A stretch of 56,493 bases of DNA from NCBI GenBank assembly GCA_022709565.1, contig JAKLIO010000003.1, positions 1-56,493 on the forward strand, read 5' to 3'. Source of the stretch: Patescibacteria group bacterium. Its GTDB lineage: Bacteria > Patescibacteriota > Minisyncoccia > Moranbacterales > GWC2-37-73. Positions 49,697 through 54,925 of this stretch are shown here, piece after piece (positions within the stretch are counted from its first letter, which is position 1; the number at the start of each line of letters is the position of its first letter). The translations under genes and the position numbers were made by a program. Under the pieces are notes generated by a model. It made no database searches, was not told the origin of the DNA, and was given only the letters and a program-made list of their open reading frames with translations.

Positions 49697-49725
49697 AGTC
49701 TAGCAAATAAGGGAAAATATGTCAA
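49697..49725 (-). promoter_or_regulatory. Promoter of the Wzz-like gene abutting the palindromic element
   Basis: Minus strand TTGACA (49725-49720), 17 nt, TAGACT (49702-49697). The -35 begins right after the GCGGGA end of the hairpin, mirroring 30490. Confidence 0.75.
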
Positions 49726-49791
49726 TCCCGCACTAACTTTTTACTGGCTAAAGCCGCTGACGCTTCGCGTTTGTAAAAAGTTAGTGCGGGA
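49726..49791. repeat. TCCCGCACTAACTTT palindromic element, copy 2
   Basis: TCCCGCACTAACTTTTTAC (49726-49744) and its exact complement at 49773-49791 (19 bp) around a 28-nt loop that holds GGCT/AGCC. The first 15 bases equal those of copy 1. CAA flanks both sides. Confidence 0.92.
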
Positions 49792-49827
49792 CAAATCCCT
49801 CTGCTTTATTTTTGTATATTTAAGACA

Positions 49828-49867
49828 ACGAAAAAACAGCGTTCCAACAATTTGGTACCCGCTGTTT
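49828..49867 (-). terminator. Terminator ending the hairpin-array transcript
   Basis: AAACAGCG (49834-49841) pairs with CGCTGTTT (49860-49867). On the minus strand it ends in TTTTTTCG, so transcription from the 52.5-kb promoter would stop here, about 265 nt past the last stop codon. Confidence 0.85.
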
Positions 49868-50131
49868 ATATAATTACCTTCCATTGGAAGGATAATTTTC
49901 AATTTTACGAAACCTTATTAAAGGTTTAAATACTGCTTTCGAAACTCTTGCGAGTTTAGGTATTGCTTTCGATACTTCCGCCCACATAGTGGCTCGGCCG
50001 TATAAATTCAGACATCCATAGGATCATCTGATGACCAAACCTCCATAGGAGCGTTTGATTTATCACCTGCATAGCAGCGTGATGGTTGTGAGAGTCTGAA
50101 CTGTTTCCAGTTCAGACTCTCAGGTTAAATT
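49868..50131 (-). ncRNA. Array of nine tandem hairpins, long structured 3' UTR or RNA
   Basis: Minus strand, in order: a 14-bp stem with GAAA loop (50121-50090); four units at 50083-50062, 50057-50036, 50031-50008 and 49997-49978. These share outer stem, asymmetric C/CN internal loop, 4-bp inner stem and a UAU loop, with inner stems (plus strand) CTGC/GCAG, CTCC/GGAG, ATCC/GGAT and CCAC/GTGG. Then GTAT/ATAC (49975-49960), AAACTC-GCAA-GAGTTT (49957-49942), AAACCTT/AAGGTTT (49927-49910) and ATTA-CCTTCC (49896-49873). GNRA loops appear only on the minus strand. The family is unknown to me. Confidence 0.75.
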
Positions 50132-51046
50132 TTAGCTGATCTTAATTTCTTTAGTCACATTGACCAAATAATTAATCAGCGCTTCTTCCTGTGTTCCAGC
50201 CAGTCCACCTTTGAGGAACTTTGTCATCGTTCCGCGGACATACTTTGCAGCCAAGCCTCGCTTGTGTTTGTCGAGAACTTGCCGTTCAAAGTCAGCTGGA
50301 TTTTGACTGCCGTTCGTACGTTCAATGTAGAGCGTAAGGTAACACTCATCATCAGACACCGAGAAATTACACTCAATGTGTTTTCCCTCGATGTCATACG
50401 TAAACGGTGTCGGGTCAAAATATTCATTGACCGCCTTCGCCGTTTCAACCGGAATTGTTTCCCTGGCTACATTGATTTTATCACTGAGATTCTCACTTAC
50501 TATTTCTAATTTATTGAGAATCTCATCATCCTTTCCATCCTTACGGAAGAAAATGAGATAAATAAGGAGACCAATAACAGCCCCTATAAGAATAGCCAGA
50601 ATCCAGGTATTGTTCGCGCCGTTGTTCAGAATGGCTTTTCCGTAAGCCACTATATTTTTGTTTGCAGTATCGGCATGTTTGAATGCCTTATCTGCAGTTT
50701 TGGCGGCTTTTTCTGTTTCGTTCGCCAAAATTGTTACGTTGTCAGCCAGCGTTGTAACTGCTGACTGAGTGTTAATCTGAACAACAATCATTTTGCGCTG
50801 CTCAGATGCTAGAGCGTTAGTGCTCTTCTCTAGCTTCTTCAATCTGGCAGAGTTGCCCTTGATTGCTTTCAACATCTTTGCAGATGCATCGGGAACCCGA
50901 GCTGCGTATGTGGGATTTTTATACGCTGCTGTAGATGACGATACGCCAACCTGGCGCTCCCCGTTGACTGTAACAGCCTGCGCCAAGGGCGCAAGCCACA
51001 TTGTAATAACTACGATGGCCGCAATGGCCAAAATAAATCTCTTCAT
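50132..51046 (-). CDS. Exported coiled-coil membrane protein, unknown function
   Basis: 304 aa: signal peptide (about 1-24, cut near AQA), an extracytoplasmic helical/coiled-coil part (about 50-145, KKLEKSTNALASEQRK; ANETEKAAKTADKAF), one membrane helix (about 150-167), then a cytoplasmic domain ending in EEALINYLVNVTKEIKIS. TTTGGAGGAG is a strong ribosome site. Codon use looks more GC-rich than neighbours. Second gene of a two-gene operon whose non-coding parts are full of hairpins. No family recognised. Confidence 0.75.
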   Translation of the reverse strand: MKRFILAIAAIVVITMWLAPLAQAVTVNGERQVGVSSSTAAYKNPTYAARVPDASAKMLKAIKGNSARLKKLEKSTNALASEQRKMIVVQINTQSAVTTLADNVTILANETEKAAKTADKAFKHADTANKNIVAYGKAILNNGANNTWILAILIGAVIGLLIYLIFFRKDGKDDEILNKLEIVSENLSDKINVARETIPVETAKAVNEYFDPTPFTYDIEGKHIECNFSVSDDECYLTLYIERTNGSQNPADFERQVLDKHKRGLAAKYVRGTMTKFLKGGLAGTQEEALINYLVNVTKEIKIS

Positions 51047-51070
51047 TTTCTCTCCTCCAAATATTGGGTT

Positions 51071-51098
51071 CAGGTGAGCTTCCTAAGAAGCTCACCTG
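51071..51098 (-). other. Intercistronic 12-bp hairpin
   Basis: CAGGTGAGCTTC (51071-51082) and GAAGCTCACCTG (51087-51098) are exact complements around CTAA, 9 bp past the stop of the 411-aa gene. There is no T tract, so it is probably an RNA stability or processing element rather than a terminator. Confidence 0.85.
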
Positions 51099-51107
51099 GT
51101 TAAGTGT

Positions 51108-52343
51108 TTACAATTGCGGGACTTTTTCAACCCGCTTCTCCGCTGCGAATCTGTCGGCTGCACTCTGTCCATTGAGAACATTGATACAGCCTGCCCAGAA
51201 GTAGTAATCCTGAGCGATCAAACGATCCGCTTCAGCCTGATTAGCTTTGATGTCGTAGCCTTTCAGGTAATTACGCTCCGCGATCTGAAACTGCTCGATC
51301 GCCGAGTTGAGATGACGCTTGTCACCTGTACACTGATACAAGTCGATGTAAGCCTCTCCCAACTTTGAACGCAAGCGGAGGTTGTTCATGCACCAACGAG
51401 TGCATTCCTTTATCCGTTGCTTCAAGTCCTCGATCCGAGCCCAAATACTGCTCGGGTCGCAAGCTTTCGGCTGCTCATAGGCTATTGGTGCTCCGCAGGC
51501 AAAGTTGCCACTAGAAACACCCTCGTATGAGGTGACCATGAACATATAAATAGTTCTGGTCAAAGTCGCAGAATCGCTAGAGGAAGCCCCTATAGAAGCA
51601 GACGCCGCAACTCCGTTTGTGTGCGCGCCAGTGCCCCCAATGCCTAGGGATGATGCCTGAGACTCTCTCTCAAACATGTAATCCCAATAGATTAGGACAC
51701 TAGTAGATCTTGTCTGTTGAACAACATCCAGAACCGTTTCCGCGAAGATGCCGATATCAGGGCTATCATAGTCGCTTCGACCCTCGGCCTTTCCACTCCG
51801 CTTTCCTTCACCGAATCCGGGTTTCTTGTTGATTATCCGAATAACGGTGTCGTCATTCAACTCCCTGTTGGCTCTGAAAATGACCTTGGTTTCAACTCTT
51901 CCAGTGAAAAGGGTTTTGAGGCCCTTTCCTCTTTTATTGAAAAAGCTTCCACCAGCAGCCATTTCCTTCAGCTGACCAATCGTGAACTCGGAATAATCCG
52001 GATCACAAATGATCTGCTTCCAACCTTGTGGAACTTCTGAAGTCGGAGCATTAACGAATGCGCTTAATAGTGGCGCCGTCACGTAATTCTTGGCGGCTTC
52101 GTATGTATTTCCGCCCGAATTACTTGAGCTTTTGCTCTTGCTGTTTGCGGCCTGAAACTGCCACTCAGACTGAATTTGCCACTCAGACTGAATTTGACTT
52201 TGATCCTGCTCAGCGTCTCCACCGGTTCCAATTCCCGTTGCCGTAGCTCTATTATCAATACCAATTGTCTGTGCTAACGAAACGCTCGCACAGAAAACAA
52301 TTGCCATAACCGCGACCATGATGGCCAGAAAACATTTTCTCAT
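51108..52343 (-). CDS. Secreted protein with Q/S repeats and TPR-like C-terminus
   Basis: 411 aa: signal peptide (about 1-24, cut near SLAQ). Residues 25-75 are Gly/Gln/Ser-rich (RATATGIGTGGDAEQDQSQ, then QSEWQIQSEWQF) and resemble the sortase substrates at 53611 and 54278. A beta-rich middle follows (VLIYWDYMFERESQ; TRTIYMFMVTSYEG), and a helical C-terminus (about 310-395) with TPR-like AYIDLYQCTGDKRHLNSAIE. GAGGAGGG precedes the ATG. Function unknown; probably a surface or matrix protein. Confidence 0.75.
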   Translation of the reverse strand: MRKCFLAIMVAVMAIVFCASVSLAQTIGIDNRATATGIGTGGDAEQDQSQIQSEWQIQSEWQFQAANSKSKSSSNSGGNTYEAAKNYVTAPLLSAFVNAPTSEVPQGWKQIICDPDYSEFTIGQLKEMAAGGSFFNKRGKGLKTLFTGRVETKVIFRANRELNDDTVIRIINKKPGFGEGKRSGKAEGRSDYDSPDIGIFAETVLDVVQQTRSTSVLIYWDYMFERESQASSLGIGGTGAHTNGVAASASIGASSSDSATLTRTIYMFMVTSYEGVSSGNFACGAPIAYEQPKACDPSSIWARIEDLKQRIKECTRWCMNNLRLRSKLGEAYIDLYQCTGDKRHLNSAIEQFQIAERNYLKGYDIKANQAEADRLIAQDYYFWAGCINVLNGQSAADRFAAEKRVEKVPQL

Positions 52344-52546
52344 GATTCCCTCCTCGGCCTTTCCGGCCTTCTATCGTTATTTTAATTTCTATTCAATTGG
52401 AAAATAACTCATGCAATCCACACTGGATTAGAGCATGAACTACATGTCGCGTTACTTCTATATTTTCACAGAGCTTTTTTAAAAATTTCATGTCCCATAA
52501 AGTGGGCATTGAAAAGCTCTGAGTTAAATACAGATATATTGTTAAC
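52344..52546 (-). promoter_or_regulatory. Structured 5' leader of the two-gene operon
   Basis: About 200 nt between the start site and ATG holds four hairpins: CAGAGCTTTT/AAAAGCTCTG with inner CCCA/TGGG (52469-52522), TCATGC/GCATGA with inner AATCC/GGATT (52409-52438), GTTATTTT/AAAATAAC (52376-52408), and GGCC/GGCC just before the ribosome site (52356-52368). No known riboswitch was recognised. Confidence 0.7.
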
Positions 52547-53610: not shown

Positions 53611-54153
53611 TTATTTAAGCTTGTTAGAATACTTTTTAACTCCAAGTCCTGCAGCTAAAATGGACAATAGGGCGATTCCGGCTAAAACAACTGAATTGCT
53701 TCCTGTGGCTGGTACGCTGCCATGCCTGTAGCTTGCTCTGTGTGAACTGTGTGAATGATCACCATCGTCTTCATCAACATCAACATCAATGTCTGTTTCA
53801 GAAGAAGTAGTTGAAGTTGCGCTGCCGCCTGTGGCTGACTGCGATTGACTCTGGGATTGCGAAGAAGACTGAGAACCGGCTTGTGCTTGCAATTGACCGC
53901 CTGATCCAGATCCTGATCCTGGCTGACCATCTGAATCCAGTAGTTGAGCTTGCGCCTGAGCTTGAGCTTGGCGTTGGCTCTGAGATTGACCCTGAGATTG
54001 AGTCGCACTGCCACCAGTTGCAGTCGCAGTAGAAGTGTTTTCGTTGTTGATATCAATGTCGACATCAGCAAAAGCTACATTCGCAGCATAAAACAAGGCT
54101 ACGACTGAAATAGCAATTATTGACAAATAAGTTAAGCTTTTTTTCATTGTCAT
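53611..54153 (-). CDS. Sortase substrate, Q/S-rich surface protein (copy 1)
   Basis: 180 aa: signal peptide (about 1-29), then DVDIDINN, STATATGGSATQSQ, a QSQSQRQAQAQAQAQ tract, a Gly/Ser linker, SQSQSQSQSATGGSAT, TDIDVDVDEDDGD, and a C-terminal sorting signal: VPATGSN, a hydrophobic helix (VVLAGIALLSILAAGLG) and a KKYSNKLK tail. The two TGGSAT blocks and the two DID/DVD blocks make the region quasi-mirror-symmetric. The layout is that of LPxTG proteins anchored by the adjacent sortase. Confidence 0.88.
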   Translation of the reverse strand: MTMKKSLTYLSIIAISVVALFYAANVAFADVDIDINNENTSTATATGGSATQSQGQSQSQRQAQAQAQAQLLDSDGQPGSGSGSGGQLQAQAGSQSSSQSQSQSQSATGGSATSTTSSETDIDVDVDEDDGDHSHSSHRASYRHGSVPATGSNSVVLAGIALLSILAAGLGVKKYSNKLK

Positions 54154-54277: not shown

Positions 54278-54925
54278 TTATTTAAGCTTGTTAGAATACT
54301 TTTTAACTCCAAGTCCTGCAGCTAAAATAGCCATCAAGGCGATTCCAACCAAAACAGCTGAATTGCTTCCTGTAGCTGGCACGCTGCCATGGCTGTAGCT
54401 TGCTCTGTGTGAACTGTTTGAATTGTGTGAGCTTCCTGATCCATGTGAATTATATGAATAATGATGATGAGAATCACCATCGTTATCGCCATCATCACCA
54501 TCGTCGCCATCATCACCATCGTCGCCATCATCACCATCGTCTTCATCAACATCAACATCAATGTCTGTTTCAGAAGAAGTAGTTGAAGTTGCGCTGCCGC
54601 CTGTGGCTGACTGCGATTGACTCTGGGATTGCGAAGAAGACTGAGAACCGGCTTGTGCTTGCAATTGACCGCCTGATCCAGATCCTGATCCTGGCTGACC
54701 ATCTGAATCCAGTAGTTGAGCTTGCGCCTGAGCTTGAGCTTGGCGTTGGCTCTGAGATTGACCCTGAGATTGAGTCGCACTGCCACCAGTTGCAGTCGCA
54801 GTAGAAGTGTTTTCGTTGTTGATATCAATGTCGACATCAGCAAAAGCTACATTCGCAGCATAAAACAAGGCTACGACTGAAATAGCAATTATTGACAAAT
54901 AAGTTAAGCTTTTTTTCATTGTCAT
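54278..54925 (-). CDS. Sortase substrate, Q/S-rich surface protein (copy 2)
   Basis: 215 aa. The first ~130 residues equal copy 1. The acidic block is then expanded to repeated DDG units (about 131-150), followed by SHHHYSYNSHGSGSSHNSNS and the sorting signal VPATGSN, helix and KKYSNKLK. The Asp-rich run could bind calcium or other cations and the His-rich run metals; this is inference. Own promoter, so each paralogue is a separate unit. Confidence 0.88.
   Translation of the reverse strand: MTMKKSLTYLSIIAISVVALFYAANVAFADVDIDINNENTSTATATGGSATQSQGQSQSQRQAQAQAQAQLLDSDGQPGSGSGSGGQLQAQAGSQSSSQSQSQSQSATGGSATSTTSSETDIDVDVDEDDGDDGDDGDDGDDGDDGDNDGDSHHHYSYNSHGSGSSHNSNSSHRASYSHGSVPATGSNSAVLVGIALMAILAAGLGVKKYSNKLK

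Follow-up and report, generated by a model that had tools for sequence, protein, structure and literature searches.

In single-stranded RNA phages, the operator hairpin has a 5'-side bulged base, a short inner stem and a loop, and it is read by the coat protein encoded on the same RNA. In type III toxin-antitoxin systems such as ToxIN, tandem structured RNA repeats are matched to a neighbouring protein in specific pairs, and the ToxI repeats are near-identical in sequence. We know of no described 3' untranslated region (3' UTR) that combines a tandem hairpin array with a membrane-protein domain as its partner. Bacterial 3' UTRs that act on their own mRNA, in autogenous control, have been reviewed (PMC7821165, PMC5502269). 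In TIGR arrays, which have also been reported from CPR genomes, hairpins stand in tandem next to the gene of their protein partner; their stems vary but are consistently palindromic, and they share short conserved motifs. TIGR-Tas is defined by units that each carry a pair of 8-12-nt spacers with box C/D motifs on either side (PMC12045711).

The locus described here lies in Patescibacteria group bacterium GCA_022709565.1 (genome W) on contig JAKLIO010000003.1, the whole 56,493 nt of which are referred to as the window. Patescibacteria (CPR) are ultra-small, uncultured bacteria, and all genomes compared in this study are metagenome assemblies. Two genes on the minus strand form an operon. The first, gene1 (51108-52343), encodes a secreted protein of 411 aa with a conserved C-terminal helical, Cys-containing domain. 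The second, gene2 (50132-51046), encodes a protein of 304 aa with a signal peptide, a coiled region, one transmembrane helix and a C-terminal domain (CTD; 50135-50545), for which a profile was built from 15 genomes. Basic residues follow the transmembrane helix, which by the positive-inside rule suggests that the CTD is cytoplasmic. No known family was found for the gene2 protein as a whole.

The hairpin array occupies the space between the gene2 stop codon and a terminator. It opens with P1 (50089-50122), a perfect 15-bp hairpin with a GAAA loop that begins 9 nt past the stop codon, and continues with four units of one design: unit 1 (50062-50083), AUCAC g CUGC (UAU) GCAG GUGAU; unit 2 (50034-50059), AUCAAAC g CUCC (UAU) GGAG GUUUGGU; unit 3 (50008-50031), UCAGAU g AUCC (UAU) GGAU GUCUGA; and unit 4 (49972-50003), CCG ag CCAC (UAU) GUGG g CGG within a further 4-bp stem. 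Three more hairpins follow, one with a GCAA loop (49940-49959), one reading AAACCUU(UAAU)AAGGUUU (49900-49935), and one, AAUUA u CCUUCC (AAU) GGAAGG UAAUU (49872-49897), that again has a one-base bulge on its 5' side. A 30-nt direct repeat (49924-49946 / 49954-49976) includes the first two of these three. The units are hairpins of 20-26 nt and the linkers between hairpins are 2-10 nt; we ourselves set the thresholds for calling hairpins and chose where each UTR ends. The terminator-like hairpin, AACAGCG...CGCUGUU followed by U6 (49831-49867), was recognized by eye and is absent from the output of a simple consensus terminator scan. The initial annotation of this DNA had described four units of shared architecture with differing stems, and its stem sequences, their compensation and its ATA (UAU) triloop are all correct, the triloop being C-UAU-G in 4/4 units. 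Its C/CN internal loop is not: units 1-3 have a single bulged G on the 5' side, between an outer stem of 5-7 bp and an inner stem of 4 bp, and only unit 4 has a 2x1 internal loop.

The hairpin array is real. A minus-strand fold of the region, which the initial annotation had proposed as a check, reaches -116.2 kcal/mol over 49810-50150 (z -8.8), and 0 of 100 shuffled sequences fold as well; the plus strand of the same region gives z -8.2. Hairpins with a one-base 5' bulge occur four times in the W UTR, against 0.34 expected from shuffles, and every other 260-nt stretch on the minus strand of the 56-kb window contains one such unit at most. When a covariance model, also proposed at the outset, was built from the four units, it found in W's own assembly (67.6% complete) only those four, at 30.2, 30.5, 28.2 and 27.5 bits for units 1 to 4, the next match scoring 13.4 bits (E 9.5). 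The suggestion that the array belongs to no known RNA class is borne out by Rfam release 15, which gives no match at or above the gathering threshold in the window or in nine loci of relatives, and only chance-level, microRNA-type matches at a relaxed E-value. We found no description of this array in the open-access literature, which does not exclude a prior description elsewhere.

Set beside the systems above, the array is like TIGR arrays in its tandem, variable-stem hairpins next to a partner gene and in its occurrence in CPR, but there is no Nop protein by the PF01798 model, there are no dual 8-12-nt spacers, and the putative partner is a membrane protein. It shares with ToxIN the tandem structured RNA repeats and, as inferred here, their specific pairing with a neighbouring protein; in the present array, however, the stems differ and only the loops agree, so that it is not a set of tandem repeats of one sequence, and no Pfam or PADLOC match to a ToxN/AbiQ-like endoribonuclease was obtained for 15 CTDs. 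The hairpin architecture is that of the ssRNA-phage operator, except that there are many sites in a 3' UTR instead of one at the ribosome-binding site; the CTD has no sequence match to any phage coat protein family, and its low-confidence model gives no clear fold match. In the reading proposed below, the likeness to autogenously controlled 3' UTRs would be that the 3' UTR acts on its own mRNA.

Of 131 genomes of the order, 23 contain relatives by a gene1 profile, and these are spread over several families; the conserved C-terminal domain of gene1 (CDPxxIxxxIxxLKxxIxxC...CTGDKxxL) belongs to no Pfam family, and the nearest named relatives are in metagenome-assembled genomes deposited as 'Patescibacteria group' and 'Parcubacteria group'. 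Relatives were also sought in viral contigs, without success. The order of the neighbourhood is kept: repetitive surface proteins, a sortase (PF04203), gene1, gene2, and after them, in most cases, a glycosyltransferase, a Wzz-like gene or both, the last two names having been given by eye. In the window, two tandem repetitive Q/S/A-rich surface proteins with a C-terminal anchor lie upstream of the sortase on the minus strand (53611-54153 and about 54280-54900), the second copy with an additional Asp/Gly-rich repeat. The gene1-gene2 block (50250-52250) has a G+C content of 0.42-0.50, compared with mostly 0.30-0.42 in its flanks. There is a long gene1 5' leader (52344-52545, minus strand) with several hairpins (AGAGCUUUU...AAAAAGCUCU; AAUCC...GGAUU), and a hairpin between gene1 and gene2 (51071-51098, minus strand; CAGGUGAGCUUCUUAGGAAGCUCACCUG). 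G003 has the same intercistronic hairpin with compensated outer pairs (CGGGUGAGCUUCUUCGGAAGCUCGCCCG), which indicates that this structure is conserved too. Past the terminator, a 19-bp inverted repeat (49722-49795) has seven matches in the same assembly; it is thus a dispersed element, probably of a small MITE-like kind that has nothing to do with the array.

An array separates gene2 from the gene that follows it in W and in 16 further genomes (G001, G002, G004, G006, G011 to G018 without a gap, G101, G108, G109 and G113). The initial annotation had held that RNA folding is selected, a claim that the absence of arrays downstream of related genes would have refuted; the arrays are present there, behind the orthologous gene, and the claim stands. 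Seven relatives are array-less: G003, G007, G024, G104, G105, G107 and G037, which has one bulged hairpin. Every relative has a long hairpin at the position of P1, which in most array-less ones is followed by U-rich, terminator-like sequence; the 3' region of array-less G104 is still strongly folded (z -5.8). G037, whose gene2 lacks the CTD, keeps a lone 5'-bulged hairpin behind that gene (locus L044), GAUuCUCC(GAAU)GGAGAUC, similar to unit C of the arrays. In four loci (L057 of G004, L037 of G017, L042 of G011 and L079 of G013), the hairpin behind the array, CCUUUCRCUCUGAUGGCAGAGAAAAGG or close to it, and the terminator are nearly identical, while the arrays that precede them differ.

The architecture is directional across these arrays. 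Internal loops are 5'-heavy rather than 3'-heavy in a ratio of 73:12 (55:6 when non-redundant), and 5'-bulged units occur at 7.8 per kb in arrays compared with 0.56 per kb in the remainder of the loci, a difference of about 14-fold. The minus strand, which is the mRNA sense, had been proposed as the relevant one, and the comparison agrees: the arrays contain 29 5'-bulged units in sense and 1 in antisense, and sense folds better than antisense, each relative to its shuffles, in 16 of 17 arrays (Wilcoxon p 5e-5). Both observations favour the sense strand, and we therefore take the mRNA strand as the one under selection. With the loops masked, stems correspond between genomes in their order along the array (score 633.5 vs 563 +- 13, 0/1000 permutations). 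G011 and G015, for example, have four corresponding units in which the stems match or are compensated and the loops have changed. The CCAC/GUGG inner stem of unit 4 recurs in G011, G015 and the f7 trio. A whole-UTR alignment of G108 and G113 shows two double and five single consistent changes and no broken pair. Such alignments of distant pairs gave many apparent pairing breaks, partly misalignments around loops of variable length, and were for this reason replaced by unit-level tests.

Loops behave differently from stems: they agree inside an array and differ between genomes, even where the stems are orthologous. The array of W has CUAUG in its four units, G015 has CACCY, G011 YCCUW, G004 GAUAU, G017 CAAUY, G016 and G018 AAUG, G001 CAGAG, and the f7 trio mostly AAAUU. 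The mean shared substring within arrays is 2.69, compared with 2.22 +- 0.06 after label shuffling (0/2000), although agreement varies by array and is not significant in every one (e.g. p 0.76 in G012). Since the shared loops sit on stems that are orthologous in order, recent duplication of one unit does not explain them, and something that reads the loop is implied.

The CTD of gene2 follows the array closely. In all 17 array genomes, gene2 extends beyond the transmembrane helix by a domain of 107-180 aa, whereas it ends just past the helix in G003, G007, G024, G104 and G105 and has a short unrelated tail in G037. Thus CTD and array are observed together in 17 genomes, both are missing in 6, and one, G107, has a diverged CTD without an array (Fisher p 5e-5, phylogeny not taken into account). 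The array and array-less states are both found in two families; in a sortase tree, rows with and without arrays are scattered, requiring four changes, at least two of them forced by well-supported branches. A prediction recorded beforehand for three loci detected with the CTD profile was met by arrays with shared loops in G006 and G013 and failed in G107, where the profile match is weak (E 7e-8) and the 3' region consists of P1, one plain hairpin and a terminator.

All CTDs belong to one homologous family by profile, but searches of Pfam, PHROGs, NCBIfam, PADLOC and PDB sequences assign it to no convincing known family; the best PDB rows are to cystatin A (E 0.005), over a short stretch only. 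The core of the domain has a pI of 5.3-9.3 and a net charge of -3 to +3, so that an RNA-binding surface is not obvious. AlphaFold2 models of the CTD (three sequences, shallow alignment) are poor, with pLDDT 51 and 44; for this reason the PUR-alpha, MRP1/2, Whirly and PC4 folds that rank high in a search with the low-confidence model (Z at most 3.6) mean little.

Comparisons of related genomes show that the CTD and the array are exchanged together. Between G004 and G017, DNA identity is 80-97% over a stretch that starts where gene1 ends and reaches about residue 190 of gene2, drops to a background of about 40% over exactly the CTD, the stop codon and the array, and returns to 92% from UTR position +173 on (in the window, UTR position k is 50132-k). 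Their gene2 proteins are 87% identical in the N-terminal part and 38% in the CTD, and their loops are GAUAU and AAUY. G004 and G013 show the converse: 39% identity in the N-terminal part and 73% in the CTD, with GAUAU loops in both, and at the DNA level low identity over the N-terminal part, 70-79% over the CTD and 100% over the array where it can be aligned. Over all pairs, loops are more alike the more identical the CTDs are (rho 0.27), a trend not seen for the N-terminal part (rho -0.06); these values carry no correction for relatedness. Because the CTD and the array are adjacent, which makes co-transfer easy and in part compels it, joint exchange supports a functional pair and does not prove it. 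The initial annotation had noticed neither this tie to the CTD nor the concerted loop changes nor the exchange as a cassette.

Presence, divergence and exchange of the array all go hand in hand with those of the inferred cytoplasmic tail of gene2, and the gene2 protein therefore probably grips its own message, although binding is inferred. We slightly favour a reading in which the array is a set of binding sites for the CTD in the 3' UTR, tethering or clustering the mRNA at the membrane; no binding data exist. Here the array would form part of the gene1-gene2 mRNA, transcription being assumed in the absence of RNA-seq. Each hairpin, with its 5'-side bulge and a loop particular to the species, would be one site, and the CTD would read the loop and probably also the bulge. 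Since a message has several sites, a number of gene2 molecules could sit on it at once and would tether it to the membrane, where gene2 and its secreted partner gene1 would be made and clustered. Contact between CTD and array could also feed back on the stability of the mRNA. A translational operator at the start of gene1 or gene2 was considered and rejected: motif hairpins are absent from both start sites and essentially confined to the array, so that the array is unlikely to work by occluding a ribosome-binding site. What would remain are tethering, clustering of nascent protein and control of decay from the 3' end. A more elaborate version, in which gene2 binds loop-coded hairpins, the mRNA, as a multivalent scaffold, brings copies of the protein and its secreted partner together at one membrane site, and CTD and loop code co-diversify and are exchanged between species as a cassette, is possible and decidedly tentative.

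Other explanations have to be weighed against binding by the CTD. Stacked hairpins could passively slow 3'-5' exonucleases and raise expression of the surface operon, their sequence being free as long as the stems pair. The position between stop codon and terminator, the compensatory stem changes and the presence of a hairpin between gene1 and gene2 as well would all fit such a stabilizer, but it predicts neither the bias of bulges to the 5' side nor loops shared only within an array nor the dependence on the CTD, and we consider it unlikely. About equally unlikely is that a protein or small RNA from another locus reads the array in trans and that the CTD is linked by position only. Concerted loop change requires some partner in trans, nothing directly identifies the CTD as that partner, and the CTD is not basic; on the other hand, loops follow the identity of the CTD and not that of the N-terminal part of the same gene, the array is missing where the CTD is missing, and the units occur nowhere else in W's assembly, a restriction that a general factor would not require.

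The remaining candidates fare worse. Related genomes trade CTD and array as a single cassette, and both diversify fast, which recalls a conflict-type cassette in which a variable CTD effector is neutralized by a hairpin RNA, as in type III toxin-antitoxin or polymorphic CTD/immunity cassettes. This is improbable given that the CTDs are one homologous family instead of unrelated effectors, that no toxin, immunity or PADLOC family was matched convincingly or by more than one member, that the domain lies behind a transmembrane helix, and that array-less relatives simply lost or never had the CTD. An element acting as single-stranded DNA (REP/BIME, attC-like or HUH-transposase hairpins) would account for strand-specific bulged hairpins, which are typical of such elements, and yet appears highly improbable: the units sit at one locus per genome, between stop codon and terminator, and are not dispersed in W's incomplete assembly, the neighbouring ORFs contain no recombinase, and folding is better on the sense strand, where G-U pairs count, in nearly all arrays. 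A TIGR array of guide RNAs for Nop-domain Tas proteins also comes to mind, since such arrays, known from CPR bacteria too, are rows of hairpins whose palindromic stems vary (PMC12045711). We rejected this candidate as scarcely tenable, since the Nop domain (PF01798) is absent from W and 19 relatives and present in four control archaea, the units lack two 8-12-nt spacers each, their linkers being 2-10 nt, and no Tas-like gene adjoins the array; a diverged Tas is not excluded.

If binding by the CTD is correct, a bacterial mRNA would be held by the membrane protein that it encodes, via a row of coded hairpins, and the array would be a natural counterpart to the engineered hairpin arrays that tag messages. 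Since every species has its own loop code, the locus would also provide a family of orthogonal protein-hairpin pairs. Even with another partner, it is unusual for loops on orthologous stems to change in concert, and such change is the mark of a reader acting in trans. For the Patescibacteria, whose cell biology is little known, binding by the CTD would offer an entry to the spatial organization of surface-protein synthesis.
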